Below, piece after piece: positions 7,482 to 19,807 of a DNA stretch of 64,000 nucleotides (position 1 is the first letter of the stretch; the number at the start of each line of letters is the position of its first letter). Source of the DNA: Pseudanabaena frigida (GTDB lineage: Bacteria; Cyanobacteriota; Cyanobacteriia; Pseudanabaenales; Pseudanabaenaceae). A model generated the notes under the pieces. The model ran no database searches. It was given only the letters and a program-made list of their open reading frames with translations, and was not told where the DNA came from. The position numbers were made by a program, and so were the translations under genes. The DNA is taken from positions 28,397-92,396 of the forward strand of contig QBML01000022.1 of NCBI GenBank assembly GCA_003242085.1, given 5' to 3'.

Positions 7482-7677
7482 TTTTTATTGCATAGCTGTC
7501 CAAATTATAGAAATATGTAGAGTTATCTAAAATATTCAAGTTAATTGATCTAAAAGCTAAAGTATAATCACAAAAAACTCTTAGTTTTTACTTAGATTAA
7601 CTGGATTGTATATGTAAGTCTGTATTTGCATCCAAGGTGCTATTTTCAGGTTTACTTACTCTTTATCAAAAAGCTTT

Positions 7678-8439
7678 ATGAAATCTATAAAGAAGTATAA
7701 TTCGGCGATCGCTTATCTACTCACATACTTTACATTAACCAATGTGTCGGGATGTAGTCAGTCAGTATCTCAAGCAAAGACAACAGCAATTAGCGAACCT
7801 CCCTTGCCGACGGCTTCAAATGTAGCAAACATTAGCCAGAATAAAGCTAAACGAACCTTTACCCCTGAACTTGTCAAAGCATATATTGATGGTTGCAATG
7901 CATCTGGTGGTACACAGGAATACTGCAATTGCTTTATAGGCACAATTAAGACAGTTCTCACTCCAGATGAATTTGACAAAGCTGGTGAAGCTTTTAAATT
8001 AGAAGGTAAAATTCCTCCCGTTATAGATAAAGCGATGAAATCATGCCAACCAGCACCACAACCAAAGCCTAATAACAATCAATCACCTAGTCAATCTGTT
8101 AGCCAATCTGTCAACCAGCCCGTCAACAAAACGGTTCCAGACACTGGAGAAATATCACTTGCAAGGCATCTCAAGAAGATAGGAGCAGTTTTTTACGGTA
8201 CTTATTGGTGTCCAAGCTGTAGTTGGCAAAAGAATCTTTTTGGAGACGCATTTACAGAAATACAATATGTTGAATGCGATCCAAGAGGAAATAATCCCCA
8301 ACCTGAGATGTGTAATAGCTTCGGGGTAACTGCTTACCCTACTTGGCAAATCAATGGGAAGTCTTATGTTGGCGGCTACTATTTAAGCGATCTTGCCGAA
8401 ATATCTGGTTATAAAGGTTCTCGAAACTTTAGAAATTAA
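7678..8439 (+). CDS. Predicted lipoprotein with C-terminal thioredoxin-like domain of the VKOR-associated type
   Basis: Signal/lipobox-like LTNVSGCSQ; active site FYGTYWCPSCSWQKNLFG; VECDPRGNNPQPEMCNSFGVTAYPTWQINGKSYVGG matches Trx domain normally fused to cyanobacterial VKOR. Confidence 0.8.
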   Translation: MKSIKKYNSAIAYLLTYFTLTNVSGCSQSVSQAKTTAISEPPLPTASNVANISQNKAKRTFTPELVKAYIDGCNASGGTQEYCNCFIGTIKTVLTPDEFDKAGEAFKLEGKIPPVIDKAMKSCQPAPQPKPNNNQSPSQSVSQSVNQPVNKTVPDTGEISLARHLKKIGAVFYGTYWCPSCSWQKNLFGDAFTEIQYVECDPRGNNPQPEMCNSFGVTAYPTWQINGKSYVGGYYLSDLAEISGYKGSRNFRN

Positions 8440-8444
8440 GGCTC

Positions 8445-9305
8445 ATGTCACGAATCAAGAAATTCCTTTTAGCTCCATCAAGTATTTATGCAAGAAGATT
8501 TTTTCTTCCATGCCTACTTTTTATTGTCACGACAATTACGGTCTTATTAATTAGTAAAGTAAATTGGACATTGTTGTTTCAACCAATCCAAAATTTGTCA
8601 TTTGAGATGGATGCTAACTATTACCGTTGGTTCAGCAAGCAAGCAATGACAAATCCATTCATATTAATACCTCTTGCATTTGCGGGCGGACTGGTCGCTA
8701 GTATTTCTCCATGCATATTAGCTTTGCTTCCAGTAAATCTCAGTTATATCGGAACTCGCGAAATCACATCCAAAAAAGAAGCCTTCATTAAGGCTGGTAC
8801 TTTTGTATTAGGAGTGGTAACGGTTCTTAGTTTGCTTGGACTGTTCTCCTCATTTGCTGGTCTAATCTTGATCAAATATCAAGGATATATCCATGCGATA
8901 GTAGGGATGATTATACTTCTAATGGGATTGAGTTTATGGGGCATTTTTCGCTTACCCTTGCCACAAATTAGTTTCAGATTTCCTTCGTTGGGTTCCTATG
9001 GAATTGGACTAACTTTTGCTCTACTAAGCTCTCCTTGTACGAGTCCAATTCTATTTGCTGTGCTGGCTGCTGCCGCCACTTCAGGCTCTCAGCTTTACAG
9101 TGTTTTGGCTATGATTAGTTATGCCTTGGGTTACACCACCATTATTTTCTTAGCCAGTTTATTTACGGGTTTGGTGAAGCAAGCCCGATCGCTAATGAAG
9201 CATTCTGAAACAATTAATCGCATTGGTAGCATTGGCTTAATCTTAATGGGAGGATTTTATCTAATGACTGGTATGCAATGGATTGTCGCAATATTAAAGA
9301 TTTAA
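8445..9305 (+). CDS. ccdA: CcdA/DsbD-family thiol:disulfide transmembrane protein
   Basis: Polytopic; Cys motifs SPCILALLPVNLSY and ALLSSPCTSPILFAVLAAAA; starts 5 bp after the thioredoxin gene. Confidence 0.85.
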   Translation: MSRIKKFLLAPSSIYARRFFLPCLLFIVTTITVLLISKVNWTLLFQPIQNLSFEMDANYYRWFSKQAMTNPFILIPLAFAGGLVASISPCILALLPVNLSYIGTREITSKKEAFIKAGTFVLGVVTVLSLLGLFSSFAGLILIKYQGYIHAIVGMIILLMGLSLWGIFRLPLPQISFRFPSLGSYGIGLTFALLSSPCTSPILFAVLAAAATSGSQLYSVLAMISYALGYTTIIFLASLFTGLVKQARSLMKHSETINRIGSIGLILMGGFYLMTGMQWIVAILKI

Positions 9306-9327: not shown

Positions 9328-10959
9328 TTATTGCAGATAGATATTTTCCCAATTATAGCGATCGCTATCCACCCCGAAGACCTTCACCAAAGCTAGAAAA
9401 TTACTCCCCGCATAACCAACTATCCGATCTGATTTACCTTGTAACTGAGGAATAAAAAAGTCGAAAATCAATTGAATTTTCTTCTCACTGCGATAGGCTC
9501 TCCAAATGCCATTTCGCAATCGTGAAAGTAATCTGGCTTCGTTAAGATCTTCTAAATTCTGACATTTCGGTTTGACTAACGCACAAGTACGAAATAGCTT
9601 TAAGCAGTCAATATCCTGTGACTCGATCGCCTCAAAAAACTCCTCTAAAATTTGCTCCACTAGTTCCTCTAGCAAATACTTCATCAAAAATGGCTGAAGC
9701 GTAAAACATACCTCTACTTCATCGACTACTTTCTCAATTAGCGATCGCCTTTCGAGTGCCGATAGAACTTCAAAAATCTGCGAAAAAGGTGGAGGCATCA
9801 GTAGAGCATCTCGCAACCTTGCTAAAGTCAACGGTTCGCGCTCGATAGTCAACCAATATAGAATCTCTTTCTCTAGCTCAGAAAGTCGATCCACTTGTTG
9901 CTTGAGTAATGACCTCATGCGATCGCCGATCACAATCGTATTTTCTTGCAAAAATGCGCGCACATCATTCCCAAACACCTCGCAAATTGTGGCGGCGATC
10001 ATTTTTAGTGCTAGTGGATTGCCGCTATACAGCGTTGTAATCTCTTGCAGTTCTCGTTCACTACCACGACAACCCTTTGCTTTGAATAGTTCTGTTACTT
10101 CGGCAATCTCTAAGCCACGCAAACCTAGAGATCGCATAGGCGAAGACGCTTCCTCATACATAGCAACTTCTGCAGGTTTTTCGCGACTAGTTAACAGCAA
10201 ACAACTTTGATGGCGATCGCTAGCTAATCTATTTAAGATTTCTCCATATCCCTCGTAACCCGTCTGATAGAATCCTGTCTGCGGCTTAATTTTTCCTTCA
10301 CTACTCAAAAATATGGCTTCCAAACCATCAATAATCAACAAACAACGATACTGCTGACAATACTCGATGAGTTGATTAATGCCCTGTTGCAAGTTATCGA
10401 TACTTACGGTCTCCTTAGCATTAGCAAAAAAGCGCAGTAAATCTTGTAAAAAATCTTTCGGTGTCGGTGCGGACTGAAGCGATCGCCATATCAAACGGTC
10501 AAATTTATCCTGCAAGCGATCGGCGCAAGCCACAGCTAGAGACGTTTTACCAATGCCGCCTATGCCCAAAATCGCCACCATTTTGCAGCGATCGCCGATC
10601 GACCAATTTTCTAGCAACGTCAATTCATCTTCGCGCCCATAAAAATCGATCAGATCAGGAGATTGATCCCAATCTTGCTGTGCTTGAGCATTTGTTAGTT
10701 TTGGGGCTGTAGGCGTATCCTCATCTTCTAGAAAAATATTTTCAGCGATCGCTTGCCAATCTGTTAGCCCCACCGCCACACAAATAGCAATAAATGTCTC
10801 GCGATCGATCGCGATTCCCCGCCAAAATCGTCGCACCGTCGCCTGTGATGTATGGGCTGCCTGCCACCATGCCAAAGTCCGAGTTTTCGTCCAGCCTTTA
10901 CGCCGCCTTGCGCGATCGGCTAGTTCAAGACCTTGTTTTGATGCTTTGAGCGTGGACAT
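9328..10959 (-). CDS. STAND ATPase (NB-ARC) with N-terminal vMAP-type HTH, lacking C-terminal repeats
   Basis: Walker A GIGGIGKTSLA, Walker B CLLIIDGLEAIF; N-terminal LELADRARRRKGWTKTRTLAWWQAAHTSQATVRRFWRG; ends at GYAGSNFLALVKVFGVDSDRYNWENIYLQ. Confidence 0.88.
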   Translation of the reverse strand: MSTLKASKQGLELADRARRRKGWTKTRTLAWWQAAHTSQATVRRFWRGIAIDRETFIAICVAVGLTDWQAIAENIFLEDEDTPTAPKLTNAQAQQDWDQSPDLIDFYGREDELTLLENWSIGDRCKMVAILGIGGIGKTSLAVACADRLQDKFDRLIWRSLQSAPTPKDFLQDLLRFFANAKETVSIDNLQQGINQLIEYCQQYRCLLIIDGLEAIFLSSEGKIKPQTGFYQTGYEGYGEILNRLASDRHQSCLLLTSREKPAEVAMYEEASSPMRSLGLRGLEIAEVTELFKAKGCRGSERELQEITTLYSGNPLALKMIAATICEVFGNDVRAFLQENTIVIGDRMRSLLKQQVDRLSELEKEILYWLTIEREPLTLARLRDALLMPPPFSQIFEVLSALERRSLIEKVVDEVEVCFTLQPFLMKYLLEELVEQILEEFFEAIESQDIDCLKLFRTCALVKPKCQNLEDLNEARLLSRLRNGIWRAYRSEKKIQLIFDFFIPQLQGKSDRIVGYAGSNFLALVKVFGVDSDRYNWENIYLQ

Positions 10960-11077
10960 TAGTAGTTAATTGAGTTAGGTTAATTTTCGAGATTTTGCAT
11001 AGCTCTACTTATCCTAGATATATGATGCATGACATAGATAATATTACAGAAATGATTATCTACAAGGATGTAGCAAA

Positions 11078-11518
11078 ATGTCTAACACCGAGTTTGATCT
11101 GTTAAATTCTGAGATTTGGAACTGTGATAAATTGCTTGAGTTTCGTTGTCCCCAAAGTTGGGCAGGTTTGACCGAAACATCAAATCAAACCGAACGATAC
11201 TGTCAGACCTGTCAAAAAAATGTGCATCTATGCTCCACACCTAATGAGTTTATTGCTAAAGGCAAGCTAGGACATTGTGTTGCAATACCAATAGAATTAA
11301 CCCCCAGTCATGCACTGATACCGATAGTTGTGGGAAGCCCCAATCAAGAAAAGGTGCGAAAGTGGCATGAAGCTAGTCAGAAAAGTAGTACCTGGTGGCT
11401 ATCTGTACTTTCTCAAAAAACATTTTTTACTGCTTTAACCTCAAACTTAGCCCTAACAGCAGTTCGTCGAATTATGGCATCTAACAAATTTCGGATAAGA
11501 TCTAATTTATTCAGATGA
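11078..11518 (+). CDS. Small Cys-rich protein of unknown function
   Basis: FRCPQSWAGLTETSNQTERYCQTCQKNVHLC metal-binding-like motif; start preceded by AAGGA. Confidence 0.7.
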   Translation: MSNTEFDLLNSEIWNCDKLLEFRCPQSWAGLTETSNQTERYCQTCQKNVHLCSTPNEFIAKGKLGHCVAIPIELTPSHALIPIVVGSPNQEKVRKWHEASQKSSTWWLSVLSQKTFFTALTSNLALTAVRRIMASNKFRIRSNLFR

Positions 11519-11562
11519 AAATGATTGATTCACCCAAATCCCAGCAAAGTCAGTGAATAGAA

Positions 11563-12102
11563 ATGGAACTTACCAAGAATTCCTACGACCGAAAATTAGA
11601 AATGGCTATTGAACAAATTTCAGAGCATTACGGGTTCAAATTGCATACTTCTGAAACCCAAAAAATTGTTAGTTTGCTACGAGAAGTACAAGATCCTTCT
11701 TGCTTAGAAGCAACTACACAAATTGAGGTTCACAATCATCATGTAAATTTTTTGAGTTATATTAACTCTCTGCTTAGTGCGATCGCGGAATGGGAATCTA
11801 AGCAAGTTGCATCAAATCTAAAGTTATGTCAAAATTTTCTTGGTAGAGTAATTACAGTGCCTCAAAATGAAGGGAAATTGATTCTTTGCGATGAACTAGT
11901 AAAAATATTTTGTTATAACCAACTTGAGTATTGTGATCGTGTAGTAGAAACGATTGCTAAGGTGGAAAAATCTTTCTTAAAAGTCGAAGCAAATATTAAA
12001 GGAATGCAATTATGTCTCTCTTGTAACAAGATAACTAAAGGATTTAAAGGGGAAAATGGTTGTTTTTGCGGTTTCTGTGGTCAAACTTTAGCTCAAGAAT
12101 AG
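11563..12102 (+). CDS. Unknown protein with C-terminal zinc-ribbon motif
   Basis: CLSCNKITKGFKGENGCFCGFCGQTL at C terminus. Confidence 0.7.
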   Translation: MELTKNSYDRKLEMAIEQISEHYGFKLHTSETQKIVSLLREVQDPSCLEATTQIEVHNHHVNFLSYINSLLSAIAEWESKQVASNLKLCQNFLGRVITVPQNEGKLILCDELVKIFCYNQLEYCDRVVETIAKVEKSFLKVEANIKGMQLCLSCNKITKGFKGENGCFCGFCGQTLAQE

Positions 12103-12166
12103 AATTGATGCATAGGTCAAAGTATACGAGAAGTAGGAATAGGTTGGGATAGTTACGGAAATTGTT

Positions 12167-13555
12167 ATGAAAGCAAGCCAGTATTGGCAATTTTTAAAGT
12201 TAAAGGCGACAGGTCAATGCATTCGCGAAACGATCGCCAATGCTAGAGAATTTTTCTTGCAACAATTTCCTGCCATAGATGATAGTGAATCTAATACTAA
12301 GGAACTATCAGATTTACAAGTTCAACGGCAACTATGGCAATTGTCACAAAATGGCGAGGCGATCGCTGAACTCTGTTTGCGATGTTTTATTTCTAATCAA
12401 ATCGAGCAAACCTGTTACCAAATCGCCAATCAGTTTGGAAATAATCATGGATTTAAGCATCACGATCTATTGCTTTTTGTACTGAATGATTATATCGAAA
12501 CATTACGCGATCGCCACCCAAGCCGATTTATATCAGTTTCCCGTGAAATCTTGGATAGCTTCGATCCAGATCGCAGTAACTTAGCCACTTGGACAAGTCG
12601 AAAGGTCAAACAAAATCGTGAATTAAATGCGTTTCTGTTAGAGCATGGCGTTTATCTAGTCAGCGATTGGGCGATTCTCAACGATACAAGTCAAAAGCAA
12701 TTGGAACGGATTTATACAGAGTTTTATCAAACGGATCTACATTCCATTCAACTGTCAAAAAATTTATTAGAGAGCTATCATGCCATTTATCGGGTCGATC
12801 GCTTGCAGTCAAGATTAAATGGAAGTAAAGGTCAATGTCCTCCTCCAACTCCAGAACAGTTGCAGAAAATCAGCGAATATTTAGCTCTGAATTACTCAAC
12901 AAGCATAGCCCTAACTACCATTCTGGATAGATTGCAGGAGATGGCAGGCAAACTGCGTCAGTATCGCATTCAAGCAAGAGGGGGGAAACCTCATCAAATT
13001 TCCTTCGATCAGCCGAATCTAACTATTAATTCTGCTAGTTTATTAGCTAATCCTGAAGACGATCGTGAAGCTTTTAATTTTTTAGAAGCATACCGTCAAC
13101 AGTTCGAGCAAAGCTTAGAGAAAGCGATCGCCAAAGTGACAGAAGTTCGTTATATCAGACTCAAACAGCGATCGTCTGATAACGCTGTAAATTTTCTAAC
13201 GGGGCTGAGTTTATTTCACTGTCATGGTCAAACTATGTCGGAAATTGCTACCGAAGTTGGACTAGAAGCTCAGTATCAGGTAACGCGATTACTCAAATTA
13301 AAAGAATTGCGATCGGATATTCGTCGTGAAATTTTGGGGAGTTTATGTGAAGATGTGATTGGAATAGTCGAGTTCTATGCTAATCCTTCACAATTAAGTG
13401 AACTAGATCGAAAATTAGAAGTTATTTTACAAGAACTGGTGGATGAGGAAATGGATCGAGCAGAAACTGAAAGTATCAAAAATAAAGGAACTCCACTCCG
13501 AAGTCGTTTTGCAATGAAGCTCTGTAAGTATTTAAGGCAAGTGCATAAATGCTAA
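12167..13555 (+). CDS. Conserved cyanobacterial protein with C-terminal HTH / sigma region 4-like segment
   Basis: GQTMSEIATEVGLEAQYQVTRLLKLKELRSDIRREIL; directly upstream of DUF1822 gene. Confidence 0.65.
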   Translation: MKASQYWQFLKLKATGQCIRETIANAREFFLQQFPAIDDSESNTKELSDLQVQRQLWQLSQNGEAIAELCLRCFISNQIEQTCYQIANQFGNNHGFKHHDLLLFVLNDYIETLRDRHPSRFISVSREILDSFDPDRSNLATWTSRKVKQNRELNAFLLEHGVYLVSDWAILNDTSQKQLERIYTEFYQTDLHSIQLSKNLLESYHAIYRVDRLQSRLNGSKGQCPPPTPEQLQKISEYLALNYSTSIALTTILDRLQEMAGKLRQYRIQARGGKPHQISFDQPNLTINSASLLANPEDDREAFNFLEAYRQQFEQSLEKAIAKVTEVRYIRLKQRSSDNAVNFLTGLSLFHCHGQTMSEIATEVGLEAQYQVTRLLKLKELRSDIRREILGSLCEDVIGIVEFYANPSQLSELDRKLEVILQELVDEEMDRAETESIKNKGTPLRSRFAMKLCKYLRQVHKC

Positions 13556-13619
13556 TGATTGCATAACTAATACATACCTAGCACTATGAACAGACAACGA
13601 ATTAGAATAAATCAACGTC

Positions 13620-14732
13620 ATGATGACACTCCACCTACTCAGCTCTGGGGGAAAGCCAATGATTAGCGAATTTGACACCATACCCCTTGAAGCGATCGCC
13701 CTATCTCCTGAGCTGCTCCGTCAAGCGATCGCCCTATCACAAAGTGCAAATAACCAATGGCAAGCTTACCTAGATGCGATCGCCTATTTGAGTGTTAGTG
13801 AATGGCTACGCGATCGATTACCAAACAACTCTCTAGATATCTCGAATGCTAATTGCCTACAGGTCAATGGCTTTACAGTTTATGTTTTAGCGATGACGCA
13901 ATCGGCAGGTGATTTGGTAGAAATCCCTAGAAACATTATTGATCTGGATAAAACTTACGCTAACAACAGCAATCTCTTTATTGTTGTTGTGGAAATTCAA
14001 GAAGAAATTGAGCAAGCTTTAATTTTAGGATTTATTCGTCATATTCAGTTAATTGAGTATCTTTCTAAGCGAGAGCGAAATACCTTCCAAGTTCCTTTAG
14101 CGCTGTTTGATGATGAACCTGAACGATTATTATTATACCTCCAACATTTAGAACCTGTGAAAGCATTGCAGCCAGAAGCAATTAAGGAATCATCTCCAGT
14201 GAGTATGAATGAGTTGATCCTCAATACTGGGCTATGGCTACAAGAACAACTGGATGAAGTCGCCAAAACTTTATCTTGGTATCTATTGCCTACTTGTCAG
14301 CCCAACTATGTATCAGCAATGCGCGCGCCTGCGATGGAACTTCAAACAATTTTTAGTGAAGTAGCTCTACTAGCTCTAAATATTCCAGATCGTGCAAGGT
14401 CGGCTTACCAAGACTTTCAACTAGGCGATCGCTATTTGCGTTTATATGCGACGGTGTGGACTGATGATAATCGCTCTGGAATATCTGAATGGTCTTTATT
14501 ATTTGTGTTGGGTAGTCAAACGATCGGCGAGATTCCCGATGGCGTGAGAATGCGAATTCGCGATCGCCATCAAATTTTAGTAGATCGTAGGCTAGAGCCA
14601 AATACTAACGATCTTTATCTTTATGCTTGTGTCACAGGCGATCGCGACGAAATATTTTCAGTGTCGATTTCTTTGCCTAGTGGTGTTATGTTAACCTTAC
14701 CAGCTTTTGCATTCCACCCAGATGCGCTCTAA
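13620..14732 (+). CDS. DUF1822 family protein
   Basis: IPLEAIALSPELLRQAIALSQ…WQAYLDAIAYLSVSEWLRDR matches remembered DUF1822 pattern; abuts next CDS. Confidence 0.8.
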   Translation: MMTLHLLSSGGKPMISEFDTIPLEAIALSPELLRQAIALSQSANNQWQAYLDAIAYLSVSEWLRDRLPNNSLDISNANCLQVNGFTVYVLAMTQSAGDLVEIPRNIIDLDKTYANNSNLFIVVVEIQEEIEQALILGFIRHIQLIEYLSKRERNTFQVPLALFDDEPERLLLYLQHLEPVKALQPEAIKESSPVSMNELILNTGLWLQEQLDEVAKTLSWYLLPTCQPNYVSAMRAPAMELQTIFSEVALLALNIPDRARSAYQDFQLGDRYLRLYATVWTDDNRSGISEWSLLFVLGSQTIGEIPDGVRMRIRDRHQILVDRRLEPNTNDLYLYACVTGDRDEIFSVSISLPSGVMLTLPAFAFHPDAL

Positions 14733-17201
14733 ATGCAGACTTACTATCTAGAAGTTGAGAAAATCGATACTCAATGCCGATTTCTGTTGAGATGGGGAAA
14801 GAATCAACGCTTGCCTATAGTCGCGATCGCCTATTCAAACCGTCTTGATACCTGCTATGGGGAATGGCAACTTGCATATCTCAACTACTATCGCAATGTT
14901 GATTTATTACCAGAGAAGCCTCATACGCAACTAAACCAAAACTTACGCGGCAGAGTCCAAAGCAGTGGTAGTTTTTCGCTTCCTAATATCGATTGGTATG
15001 AGAAATTGCGAGAGGCTGAGGAGAAACTACTTAGAGAATTTACCTTTTGGTTGCGAAGTCCTGAGCTTTATGAACTCTGGGAAGAAGTGAAGCGATCGGC
15101 ACGTCTGGTATCCATTCAATCTAAATCCTCAGATTTGCCTTCAGCACATATCGACTTACAGATCGCATGTTCCGAAGATTTGCTCTATTTACCTTGGGAA
15201 GCATGGAAATTACAAGATGAATTTGCGTCCCTCGATACGGTGCGAATTGCTAGATCTGTTTATTCCAGTGCTGAAGTATTAACACCTCAGCCGCGTCGCC
15301 GCCCTAGAGTATTAGCGATTTTTGGTGACGAGACAGGTTTAGACTTTCAGCACGATCGCGAGGCAATGCAGATTTTATCGGGTTTAGCAGAAATTCATAC
15401 GATTTGCTGGGATGACGATATATCTAATCGAATCAACCAAAAACAAAAAATCTGCGATGCGATCGCCGATACTAAGGGGTGGGACATTCTCTATTTTGGA
15501 GGACATAGCGACCAGACCAATTTAACAGTCGGTAAGTTGCTAGTTGCTCCTAACAGTTCGCTGACTATGAGCGATTTAGAATCTTATCTATTGCAAGCTA
15601 AAGAACATGGTTTGCAGATTGCAATTTTTAATTCTTGTAATGGAACTGAAATTGCCACTTGGCTGATCGCTAAAGTGGGAATACCACAAGCGATCGCAAT
15701 GCGTGAACCCATTCATAACCAAGCTGCACAAGGCTTTTTAGTCCAGTTTCTCAAAAATCTGGCGCAGCATAAAGATGCTCACACAGCTATGCTAGAAGCC
15801 TGTCGCTATTTGCAAGAAGAACGCTTACTATTCCCCTCTGTTTACCTAATCCCCTCTCTATTTCGCTATCCCGATGCACCGCTATTTCAGATATTGCCAA
15901 CAGGTTGGAAGTCGATCTTACAGCGAATTTTGCCATCCCCATTACAGGCGATCGCTCTCAGTACGTTGCTAGCAGTTAGCCTAGTTCCATCCTTACAAGA
16001 ATGGATGCTAGATCGGCGCGTTTGGCTGCAAGCAATCTATCGCCAGCAAACTCAGCGCATTCCTAATGAGGTTCCCCCAGTTCTCCTAGTCCAAATTGAT
16101 GAAACTTCCTTACAAAAAGCCGCGATCGCCGATCCGCATCCGATGGATCGCCATTACTTAGCTAAATTAGTCGATCGTCTAGCTAGTCAAAATGCTCAGA
16201 TCGTCGGAATTGATTATTTACTAGATCGCTCCCATCATAGCCGTAAGGATGATAAAGATGATGGACAAAGCGATCGCATCCTAGGAGAATCCATTCAAAA
16301 TGCTGTAAATCGAGAAGCTAATGGAACTTGGTTTGTTTTAGCATCTGTCTATAGTGAAGGTAATTGGTTAGAGACTTTACCCGAAATTGCTAGCAAAAAT
16401 GGCAGTGTGGATGGTCATATTCATATGTCGGTGCAGTATTTGCCGCTAGTACAAACCGATGTGCAAAAGTTGCCATTTTCCTATCTATTAGCAGGAATAC
16501 ATCGATTTAGAGCAACTAAGATTTTGCGATCGCCTCTAGCCAACAATGAAATCCTCTTCACGCAAATAAACGATACCCTCCGCATACATGGCAAAACCTT
16601 ACGCAATTTGCTTTCTCCGACTGCACAAATGCTACCGATTACAGACTTTGCTCAAGAGGCGATCGAGCAGTCATGGCTACATCCAATTGTCGATTTTTCC
16701 ATTCCCCCCGATCTCATTTATCGAACTATTTCTGCATGGCAATTACTACAGGATAATCCGCAAAATAGGCTGCAAATATCAGACTCTCAGATCGTGCTTA
16801 TTTCGGCTAACTATGCTGAAGCTGGAGTCTTCAAACAAGGTGAAGATTCATTTGCACAACCATCTGCAATTCGTTACTGGCTCCAGCAATCTACATCAAC
16901 GAGACAACGTGAAACCTATACAGGAGGAGAAGTGCAAGCATATGCGATCCACCATTTTTTGCGTGATCGCTACGTCGTGCCAATTCCTGACTCTTGGATG
17001 ATACTTTTATTTCTCACTGGTGGTGCAATTCTTGTAGCAACTTGGCAGCCGCGATCGCGTCAACAGTCTTATATTTTGCTAGGTGCTAGCCTGAGTCTAT
17101 ATACCTTAGCGAGTATCGAGATTTATATTTCGGGTGGGGTTCTTTTACCTATTGTATTTCCTGCGATTGTGGCGATCGTTTACTGCCTGCCTAAATTATA
17201 A
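14733..17201 (+). CDS. CHAT (caspase-like) protease domain fused to CHASE2 sensor and three C-terminal TM helices
   Basis: CHAT: LYFGGHSDQTN (His258) and AIFNSCNGTEIA (Cys302); CHASE2: VLLVQIDETSLQKAAIADPHPMDRHYLAKLVDRLASQNAQIVGIDYLLD; C-terminal WMILLFLTGGAILVA… helices. Confidence 0.9.
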   Translation: MQTYYLEVEKIDTQCRFLLRWGKNQRLPIVAIAYSNRLDTCYGEWQLAYLNYYRNVDLLPEKPHTQLNQNLRGRVQSSGSFSLPNIDWYEKLREAEEKLLREFTFWLRSPELYELWEEVKRSARLVSIQSKSSDLPSAHIDLQIACSEDLLYLPWEAWKLQDEFASLDTVRIARSVYSSAEVLTPQPRRRPRVLAIFGDETGLDFQHDREAMQILSGLAEIHTICWDDDISNRINQKQKICDAIADTKGWDILYFGGHSDQTNLTVGKLLVAPNSSLTMSDLESYLLQAKEHGLQIAIFNSCNGTEIATWLIAKVGIPQAIAMREPIHNQAAQGFLVQFLKNLAQHKDAHTAMLEACRYLQEERLLFPSVYLIPSLFRYPDAPLFQILPTGWKSILQRILPSPLQAIALSTLLAVSLVPSLQEWMLDRRVWLQAIYRQQTQRIPNEVPPVLLVQIDETSLQKAAIADPHPMDRHYLAKLVDRLASQNAQIVGIDYLLDRSHHSRKDDKDDGQSDRILGESIQNAVNREANGTWFVLASVYSEGNWLETLPEIASKNGSVDGHIHMSVQYLPLVQTDVQKLPFSYLLAGIHRFRATKILRSPLANNEILFTQINDTLRIHGKTLRNLLSPTAQMLPITDFAQEAIEQSWLHPIVDFSIPPDLIYRTISAWQLLQDNPQNRLQISDSQIVLISANYAEAGVFKQGEDSFAQPSAIRYWLQQSTSTRQRETYTGGEVQAYAIHHFLRDRYVVPIPDSWMILLFLTGGAILVATWQPRSRQQSYILLGASLSLYTLASIEIYISGGVLLPIVFPAIVAIVYCLPKL

Positions 17202-17328: not shown

Positions 17329-17685
17329 CTAGGGTAACTCCAACGCAGTCTTTAGGCAGTTATTCACATTTTGCATAACAGCATCAGGCAGTTGCCCCAG
17401 CTTACGCAAGATCTTTTCTTTGTTCAGAGTCAATAGATTGACATTGTTAACGACAGAATCTTGTCTCAAACCAGATTCTTGCCCCTCTTGGGTTGCAATC
17501 TCGATCAATAACTGTGTCGGTTCTAAAGATCTCTGGGTCTTGCTTGTGATTTGAGCGACGATTGTATTTTTGAGTCGTTGGTTGTCGAGATCATTTTGAA
17601 TCACAAGGACAGGACGCACTTTAGTTTCATTACCAGAGGTATAGGGATAATCAACCAATACCACATCACCTCGTTGAATATTCAT
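17329..17685 (-). CDS. MazF/PemK family toxin (type II TA)
   Basis: MNIQRGDVVLVDYPYTSGNETKVRPVLVIQND…NTIVAQITSK; overlaps upstream antitoxin by 4 bp. Confidence 0.88.
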   Translation of the reverse strand: MNIQRGDVVLVDYPYTSGNETKVRPVLVIQNDLDNQRLKNTIVAQITSKTQRSLEPTQLLIEIATQEGQESGLRQDSVVNNVNLLTLNKEKILRKLGQLPDAVMQNVNNCLKTALELP

Positions 17686-17948
17686 GACTCTTTACGGGGA
17701 TCGAGATCGTTATAGATATCCATTGCGGGATCATCCCAGCCTTCTCTTCCAAAAACTTCCATAGTGGGAAGATACATATTTTCAAGGAATTGGATACTTT
17801 GTTCTTCCAGCAAAAGTGCTTTCACCCTTGCATATAATGCTTCTGGAATCAGTACATAGGTTATATCTGTGTCTGGATCTATGGCACGAGGAGGTGTTTC
17901 TCCTTGATTTACTACTGCTTGTCTCTGTTCAAGAGTTAGTTCGATCAT
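17682..17948 (-). CDS. Putative antitoxin partner of MazF-like toxin
   Basis: 88 aa, LTLEQRQAVVNQGETPPRAIDPDTDITYVLIPEALYARVKALL; overlaps toxin by 4 bp. Confidence 0.82.
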   Translation of the reverse strand: MIELTLEQRQAVVNQGETPPRAIDPDTDITYVLIPEALYARVKALLLEEQSIQFLENMYLPTMEVFGREGWDDPAMDIYNDLDPRKES

Positions 17949-18088: not shown

Positions 18089-19807
18089 TTATGCCAACAA
18101 AGTTTTAAGCTTTTCCTTAAGTATTTCACTACGCTTAGTTATAAATTCATCAAAATTACTTAACTCTAAACTTACATCTGGTATTAGGTGGCTTGCCAAA
18201 AATGAAATTCTATCCTTTCTATTTTCGTCAGTTTCTTTCTTTACCCATGGGGCTAAATCTTTTTTATTCTTTGACATATTTTCATTTGCGTCAAGCATTT
18301 GAAGATTTTTCAATGAGTTATAGGTATTCCACCCATACTTTTGTTGGAGATCTTGTTCCAGTTCATTGTACTTAGAAGCTGGATGCAAATGGTCTTTATG
18401 AAAATCATTGTTCTTATAGTCAAGATTGGGGTAAAGCAGTGCCAATATAGAGAAAGCATAGGCATTATCTATCTGTGTTAACAGGATATCTTCGATAAAT
18501 TCATCAGTTATGCCTATATTTTTAATATTTATATTAATACTGTCAATCGGAAACTTCAGGGTACTAAATTCAATTGCTTCTGTTGATATATCACTAGTAA
18601 AAGCATTTCGGATTTGACTTAAAATACTGTCAGATGTACCACTGAAAACCCTTTTGATCAGAACAACATGCAACCATTTTTTTATAATTTCCCTGTCGGC
18701 AGAATATTCAACTCTTTTACTAAAGTCTTGGTATATGTTCTTATGATAAAGGTAATAAATTATGGGTATGAGCGCATTTTTGGAAGTCAGTGTTGAATCG
18801 AAAAACCCAAATGATTTCACAAGATCAAACATAGATAGAATTGTATCCCTGATTTTTTCCCACTCGTTTTCAAATGCGATGGCATTGTCTACAGAGAAAT
18901 TCGTAACTTTAAATTTAATATCTTTGCTATGTAAATATAGAAATGTTTTCAATATAAAATCTTTTGAAATTGAAAAACCTTTATCTCTTACACTATCAAC
19001 TAGATCGTAAATTTCCTTCCTTGCATCTTTATGTTTCCAATTAGCAACAGCAATAGACATAATTAGATCCGAAAAGTCCAACTTCACCCCGCCACTGTTA
19101 ATCCTAATAAATATATTTAGAGCCTTATCAATGTTTTGCTCTGTTTCAAGAAAGAAATTTATAAGAGGCTTTGTATGAATAACTTCATGTAGAGTCGATA
19201 AAGTATTTTGGGAGAAATCACTAATAATATTATGCTCTCTCAAATATCTGCTAAACTGAGCAAAACCTGAAATAGCATAAATCTCAGAAACTTTGAACCA
19301 TTTCGTTGCATCTGATCTAAGCTCATCTTCTATCAAGAATTTGAATTCATATATTCTTCCGTCTTCCTGACTCGCCAGAGGTTTTTCAATATTCAAATAC
19401 AGATGTCTAGTTGGATAAGTTCTCTCAGTATTTTCCTCTTTAACTTTTGGTCTTCGATAGGCGTAGCTTCCACGAAGTCCAATATACAGAGAGGTTAGTC
19501 TTTGCTGACCATCCAGTATTGCCGTGAAATCATTATGAACATTAGTTGGAAACTCATTGTTATGAGTCTTATAGCGCTGTCTATACTCTCTCAGAAACTG
19601 ATAAAACTTATATTTTTTTCTCGTGTCTCCTTCAACTCGCCAAAATAAAAACGAACTGATCGGATAGTTTTGCATTATTGAATCAAACAACCACTCAATT
19701 TTCTCATGACCCCATTCAAATTCACGTTGAATTGCTGGCAGTAAATATTGATTCTTCTCAATATTTTGGATAGCTGTTGCAATTGTAATTGGAGCATGAA
19801 ATGACAT
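18089..19807 (-). CDS. DUF262 + DUF1524 (HNH-like) protein, GmrSD-type family
   Basis: QYLLPAIQREFEWGHEKIEWLFDSI, ILDGQQRLTSLYIGL; C-terminal KDHLHPASKY…NLQMLDANENMSKNKKDL. Confidence 0.87.
   Translation of the reverse strand: MSFHAPITIATAIQNIEKNQYLLPAIQREFEWGHEKIEWLFDSIMQNYPISSFLFWRVEGDTRKKYKFYQFLREYRQRYKTHNNEFPTNVHNDFTAILDGQQRLTSLYIGLRGSYAYRRPKVKEENTERTYPTRHLYLNIEKPLASQEDGRIYEFKFLIEDELRSDATKWFKVSEIYAISGFAQFSRYLREHNIISDFSQNTLSTLHEVIHTKPLINFFLETEQNIDKALNIFIRINSGGVKLDFSDLIMSIAVANWKHKDARKEIYDLVDSVRDKGFSISKDFILKTFLYLHSKDIKFKVTNFSVDNAIAFENEWEKIRDTILSMFDLVKSFGFFDSTLTSKNALIPIIYYLYHKNIYQDFSKRVEYSADREIIKKWLHVVLIKRVFSGTSDSILSQIRNAFTSDISTEAIEFSTLKFPIDSININIKNIGITDEFIEDILLTQIDNAYAFSILALLYPNLDYKNNDFHKDHLHPASKYNELEQDLQQKYGWNTYNSLKNLQMLDANENMSKNKKDLAPWVKKETDENRKDRISFLASHLIPDVSLELSNFDEFITKRSEILKEKLKTLLA

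Follow-up and report, generated by a model that had tools for sequence, protein, structure and literature searches.

A membrane CHAT-CHASE2 protease, a DUF1822 protein and a divergent sigma-like protein in Pseudanabaena frigida: a candidate protease-gated transcription system

Cyanobacterial loci that combine a caspase-like protease with a sigma factor and a DUF1822 protein have been described by Kaur et al. (eLife 2021; PMC8195603), who found EACC2-caspase proteins with CHASE2 or other C-termini next to genes for an extracytoplasmic function (ECF) sigma factor and for DUF1822, in their account a TPR protein, and proposed that sensing activates the caspase and that the output runs via the ECF sigma factor. 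Experimental evidence exists for a related arrangement, in which the CHAT protease Csx29 cleaves Csx30 and lifts the inhibition that holds back a sigma factor (Science 2022; PMC10028731). Here we analyse a locus of Pseudanabaena frigida at positions 11,078 to 17,201 of a 64,000-nucleotide (nt) stretch (assembly GCA_003242085.1, contig QBML01000022.1, positions 28,397 to 92,396 of the forward strand), called the window below. An earlier note, made from the sequence alone, had described there a five-gene signalling unit of co-directional open reading frames (ORFs), the last two abutting. All five are present on the + strand, and the gap between the DUF1822 and CHAT-CHASE2 genes is indeed 0 (14732/14733):

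11078..11518, + strand: Cys1, a small Cys-rich protein of 146 amino acids (aa), from the ORF list; lineage-specific and outside the conserved core
11563..12102, + strand: Cys2, a small protein of 179 aa with a C-terminal Cys-pair segment, from the ORF list; lineage-specific
12167..13555, + strand: divergent sigma-like protein of clade D, 462 aa, assigned by profile and fold comparison, with no Pfam sigma match
13620..14732, + strand: DUF1822 protein, 370 aa (Pfam, 73.3 bits against a cut-off of 25), with an alpha+beta AlphaFold2 (AF2) model of mean predicted local distance difference test (pLDDT) 86
14733..17201, + strand: CHAT-CHASE2 protein, 822 aa, assigned by Pfam and hydropathy, with a conserved dyad and a conserved N-terminus

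We propose that the membrane sensor-protease controls the divergent sigma factor via DUF1822 and so opens a small local regulon, a reading to which we give even chances. Computation supports it through the gene order, the conserved dyad, the homology to sigma factors, the swapped sensors, a promoter-like motif and the co-occurrence of motif and trio; we infer that a ligand is sensed, what the protease cuts, how the sigma-like protein is released and which protein acts at the motif.

The conserved trio and its membrane protease

The neighbourhood survey covered about 100 cyanobacterial genomes picked by their matches to DUF1822 and the sigma-like protein, so that the proportions are those of a hit-chosen set in which some contigs end nearby. 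DUF1822 lies directly downstream of 113 of the 121 sigma-like genes, with a median gap of 7 nt. CHAT is also present in 69 of these loci, 62 of them with CHASE2, and the other 44 pairs have no CHAT nearby. Because the two genes are nearly always paired, also where CHAT is not close, sigma-DUF1822 looks like a core that receives the protease. In the family to which the window belongs, DUF1822 and the sigma-like gene co-occur, adjacent, in the same 9 of 38 genomes, and CHAT-CHASE2 then follows in all eight relatives read. Conservation of the neighbourhood across cyanobacteria, the check proposed beforehand, is thus borne out by a trio that recurs in the same order. The partial correlation of protein distances is highest for sigma-like/DUF1822 (0.49 in 50 trio loci, not corrected for phylogeny). 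The family is widespread among cyanobacteria; DUF1822 exceeds its cut-off in 184 of 291 genomes and the sigma-like protein is found in 95 of them.

What is conserved is this trio, to which a DUF928-like gene is usually added as a fourth. Cys1 and Cys2 were not found in the trio loci of the eight relatives read and match no Pfam family over cut-off; Cys1 has one weak homologue among 37 other relatives, on a different contig, and Cys2 a single short degenerate match, in genome G026. Since the two are not conserved among relatives, the five-gene unit was ruled out. A downstream gene is available for 66 trio loci, and in 52 it lies on the same strand at most 200 nt away, in many cases overlapping the CHAT stop codon. 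One family, with hydrophobic, signal-peptide-like N-termini, accounts for 43 of these 52 genes, and 20 of the 52 match Pfam DUF928. Most trio operons therefore end in a DUF928-like gene whose product is predicted to be exported, a gene that is missing from the window clade.

Both named domains of the 822-aa protein score above their Pfam cut-offs (CHAT, PF12770, 40.2 bits against 24; CHASE2, PF05226, 72.2 bits against 26.3). It is laid out as an N-terminal module, CHAT (~139-361), a hydrophobic segment (~399-422), CHASE2, and strong C-terminal hydrophobic segments (~748-770 and ~781-822). By hydropathy CHASE2 is thus flanked on both sides by hydrophobic segments, about the membrane layout that had been noted. 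His258 (GGH) and Cys302 (NSC) were located where the earlier note placed them, and the caspase-like dyad is confirmed as intact; all 80 aligned full-length homologues have both residues, and Asn300 and Ser301 are invariant among them too. With a score over cut-off and the His/Cys dyad, an active CHAT peptidase is predicted. The N-terminal module directly before CHAT is common to 80 of the 81 CHAT proteins longer than 500 aa, non-CHASE2 ones included, and the C-termini found on this constant part are CHASE2, the periplasmic-binding Peripla_BP_6/ANF_receptor, nSTAND1 and nSTAND1-WD40. From its predicted domains, the CHAT protein is a constant N-terminus joined to a swappable C-terminal sensor.

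The protease could merely share an operon with the sigma-DUF1822 pair and act elsewhere. A precedent is HetF of Anabaena, a CHAT-type protease of the membrane with PatU3 as its substrate (PMC12288457), and the many pairs without CHAT would be in keeping with it. However, the gene order is tight in 69 loci, and the protease keeps its link to this pair even where it carries another sensor domain; we consider this explanation very unlikely.

The sigma-like protein and its DUF1822 partner

The tree of the sigma-like family separates, with a branch support of 100, clade S (n=52) from clade D (n=69), which contains the window protein. DUF1822 lies beside 51 of the 52 clade S genes and 62 of the 69 clade D genes, the full trio being found in 17 and 50, respectively. 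In Pfam, Sigma70_r4 is the stronger match of clade S members and Sigma70_r2 the weaker, and their region 4 matches solved sigma factors. Scanned singly, clade D members have no Pfam sigma match; the profiles of the two clades align over 312 columns (probability 98.9, E 1.1e-17), spanning both sigma-like regions. The AF2 model of the 462-aa protein has a pLDDT of 90, and its first five PDB fold matches are sigma factors. The relationship to sigma factors that the earlier note had read from a C-terminal segment is supported in this way via homologues, by profile comparison and a weak fold match. These sequence and model comparisons make the protein sigma-like and of sigma ancestry but do not prove it to be a sigma factor; it represents a divergent clade overlooked by Pfam. 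We call it sigma-like rather than an ECF sigma factor because regions 2 and 4 of the window protein stay below curated cut-offs.

The sigma candidates of the same genome (L207/L208) were rejected as relatives, as no trio profile matches those regions, and a phage origin was set aside, no sigma-like homologue being found in phages. Where the sigma-like gene is missing, a family of ~220 aa without Pfam match precedes DUF1822, often together with CHAT (loci L093, L099, L103, L106, L110, L112, L113, L019 and L020), and is possibly a third sigma-like type. In L024-L026 a gene with an HD_5 domain lies at most 10 nt upstream of the sigma-like gene, and TPR-CHAT genes flank that operon.

The DUF1822 model (predicted template modelling score 0.58) is alpha+beta with a C-terminal beta-sandwich; its fold has no PDB match under 1e-3, and TPR models match none of 75 DUF1822 members. 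The model and the absence of TPR matches led us to rule out a TPR protein, a departure from the 2021 description. A flexible linker of variable length at ~183-200 of the model is a possible protease-accessible site. Two papers in the literature searched mention DUF1822, and no experimental test of its function was found in either. A strain comparison reports a 19-base insertion and a single-nucleotide polymorphism in DUF1822 genes of two Tolypothrix plasmids (PMC9679502); the plasmids with the altered genes, NZ_CP063787 and NZ_CP063788, also carry CHAT-CHASE2.

A promoter-like motif and its predicted targets

In the alignment of six close relatives, a block in the gap between the sigma-like gene and DUF1822 is conserved, and a weaker one, similar in four of five close relatives, precedes the sigma-like gene. 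The promoter-like motif is TTGCATAGCT-N10-TAGAnnTATG, and by the matching pattern given below the window holds three exact copies, all on the + strand. Its copies and the gene pair predicted to be under its control are:

7488..7517, + strand: exact motif copy, 161 nt before the gene pair that follows
7678..8439, + strand: lipoprotein-like protein, 253 aa, downstream of the exact motif; predicted regulon member
8445..9305, + strand: DsbD_TM (cytochrome c biogenesis membrane) protein, 286 aa (Pfam, 1.1e-12)
10995..11024, + strand: exact motif copy, 54 nt before Cys1
12108..12137, + strand: weaker motif copy with 2-3 mismatches, 30 nt before the sigma-like gene
13559..13588, + strand: motif TTGCATAACT-N10-TAGCACTATG, 32 nt before DUF1822, exact in all six close-trio genomes

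The pattern used for exact matching, TGCATANNT-N10-TAG-N3-TATG, was derived after the window sites had been seen; therefore the tests in other genomes and with a matrix are those that count. Among 26 genomes, exact matches occur at 10 sites, all in the 6 close-trio genomes and none in the 20 others, although three of these have a distant trio. The motif is absent from G010, G011 and G020, with another DUF1822 but no close trio. The reversed motif gave no match. When two mismatches are allowed the counts come near background (73 in the 6 trio genomes against 146 in 18 others), and in G022 5 of 13 such sites lie on the 36-kb trio contig. At its strictest threshold, a matrix trained solely on the six sites of the sigma-DUF1822 gap found 8 further sites in 148 kb, where the rate in 2,054 kb of other cyanobacterial DNA would predict 0.29. 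Seven of the eight lie at most 200 nt before a same-strand ORF, and the eighth, over a longer stretch, 107 nt before a CHAT gene. The columns that vary least, TGCATA..T and AGA..TA, are asymmetric, and several sites lie 30-35 nt from a start codon, as fits a promoter. A generic promoter scan returned no more sites than in shuffles. The coupling to transcription that the earlier note suggested is supported, the dedicated motif being consistent with it. An out-of-frame short ORF (13585-13665, MNRQRIRI...), noticed by eye in the aligned relatives, begins in the TATG of the motif, crosses the DUF1822 start and ends near the second ATG of DUF1822; it may be a leader ORF or chance.

The predicted targets include the genes for DUF1822 and the sigma-like protein themselves. 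G022 adds a second DUF1822 and, like G000 (there on another contig), a ~605-aa CHAT protein that shares the constant N-terminus. The other targets are M48 peptidases, a PrsW-like protease, genes for DsbD_TM proteins and thioredoxin-like lipoproteins, and a PspA/IM30-like protein (1.1e-5, below its Pfam cut-off). In the window, the gene at 7678 is a probable member of the regulon, and that at 8445 is probably co-transcribed with it. The G022 homologue of the former has weak thioredoxin/glutaredoxin matches, and G022 has a gene pair of this type upstream of its own sigma-like gene. Taken as predicted, the targets have the upkeep of the envelope as their common theme and suggest an autoregulated envelope-stress response.

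According to the mechanism we propose, one membrane protein, with CHASE2 outside and CHAT inside, would act on the sigma-like protein through DUF1822. An extracytoplasmic cue sensed by CHASE2 would switch on the CHAT active site, the activated CHAT would cut DUF1822 or the DUF1822-sigma complex, and the sigma-like protein so freed would transcribe its own genes and a local regulon that takes in envelope proteases and redox proteins from promoters of the motif type. Cleavage of DUF1822 or of the sigma-like protein by CHAT is at this point pure conjecture. Several observations weigh against the scheme. The 462-aa protein alone has no Pfam match over cut-off, with neither Sigma70 region 2 nor region 4 recognised, and its PDB fold matches are weak (best E 5.6e-3, low template modelling score). 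Seven clade D genes have no DUF1822 detected nearby, and no conserved or fixed cleavage motif was seen in the DUF1822 linker. The regulon rests on a single genus, and six of the ten exact sites are the DUF1822 site by descent. Finally, the motif is partly inverted-repeat-like (CATAGCT/AGCTATG) and could for that reason be an operator.

The partial repeat and the regions missed by Pfam would suit a sigma-derived DNA-binding regulator, with the motif as its operator and DUF1822 and CHAT tuning it. Such a role for the 462-aa protein appears rather unlikely to us, as the homology to clade S extends across both sigma-like regions, the invariant columns lack symmetry and many sites are spaced from the start codon as promoters are.

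A conflict or cell-death system has also to be considered, in which the protease would kill or arrest the cell on infection and the sigma-like pair would serve for expression control. Kaur et al. placed the family among conflict systems (PMC8195603), and an NB-ARC STAND protein, a PemK/MazF toxin and a GmrSD/HEC-05 homologue are encoded close by in the window. Homologues occur on 40 plasmid records, mostly cyanobacterial, and therefore the system is partly mobile; in the same-genus genome G021, whose CHAT-CHASE2 protein is 77.7% identical to that of the window, the trio coordinates match plasmid NZ_AP017563.1 of Pseudanabaena sp. ABRG5-3. Plasmid carriage thus keeps open the conflict reading that the earlier note had mentioned, but predicted targets of the envelope and redox type, the PspA-like protein among them, do not favour it. 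The core pair also occurs without the protease, and a known defence system was rejected because none of the five proteins has a convincing PADLOC match. We judge a conflict role improbable.

As for the neighbours themselves, the NB-ARC STAND gene (9328-10959, - strand) is divergent from the five-ORF block. It was dismissed as a conserved neighbour, since a close homologue adjoins the trio only in G032, beside the sigma-like gene and with 75% identity; in G026 the homologue is on another contig. Directly downstream of the CHAT gene lies the PemK/MazF-type toxin with a small upstream ORF (17329-17948, - strand). The GmrSD-like protein (18089-19807, - strand) is a strong match to the PADLOC candidate defence family HEC-05 (E 8.8e-206).

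Comparison with known systems

The kind of system is already known, because Kaur et al. described in 2021 both the organisation and the signalling from protease to transcription. The earlier note had considered DUF1822 and its neighbours undescribed, and this part, like the five-gene unit, does not stand, whereas the conserved neighbourhood, the dyad, the sigma relationship and the coupling to transcription do. The locus shares with the EACC2-caspase systems a constant N-terminal module and caspase-like domain, a variable C-terminus including CHASE2 and STAND, the sigma-like and DUF1822 neighbour genes and the same proposed logic; the N-terminal module is likened to EACC2, an alpha+beta domain, by published description, not by alignment. 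As to the neighbouring ECF sigma factor, the related clade S matches Sigma70_r2/r4 and the window protein is assigned by profile and a weak fold match. The window differs in its divergent sigma-like clade and in a DUF1822 not modelled as TPR. The DUF928-like partner, the pair without CHAT and the promoter-like motif go beyond the EACC2 account.

In the type III-E CRISPR system (the TPR-CHAT protein Csx29, Csx30 and CASP-sigma) a protease, a partner and a sigma factor are likewise encoded together (PMC10028731). RNA is sensed there, in contrast to the membrane sensor here, DUF1822 is likened to Csx30 by role only, and no Cas7-11 or other Cas gene was found among the neighbouring proteins scanned. 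HetF, too, is a cyanobacterial membrane CHAT protease that cleaves a regulator (PMC8406250, PMC12288457); it differs in its described make-up, CHAT with one transmembrane segment and TPR, and in its role in cell division and heterocyst formation, and the portions of these sources that were read describe no sigma or DUF1822 partner. DegS-RseA-sigmaE, as far as it is outlined where cited in PMC10028731, resembles the proposed scheme in that an envelope signal acts by way of a protease to release an ECF sigma factor, with targets of the envelope type. In the window, however, sensor and caspase-like protease form one protein, and no anti-sigma homology is shown for the system.

Within the literature searched, the divergent sigma clade, the non-TPR model of DUF1822, the predicted DUF928-like exported partner, the core pair and the motif with its predicted regulon are new. 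The predicted motif and target list make what was a one-paragraph prediction directly testable. Tentatively, the locus may represent a new form of cyanobacterial envelope-stress signalling, in which a one-protein sensor and caspase-like protease would free a divergent sigma factor that has a promoter class of its own. The sensors would be interchangeable, most lineages would add a DUF928-like exported partner, and the autoregulated regulon would consist of envelope proteases and redox proteins. If true, this would be a caspase-like counterpart, in cyanobacteria, of protease-released sigma factors.

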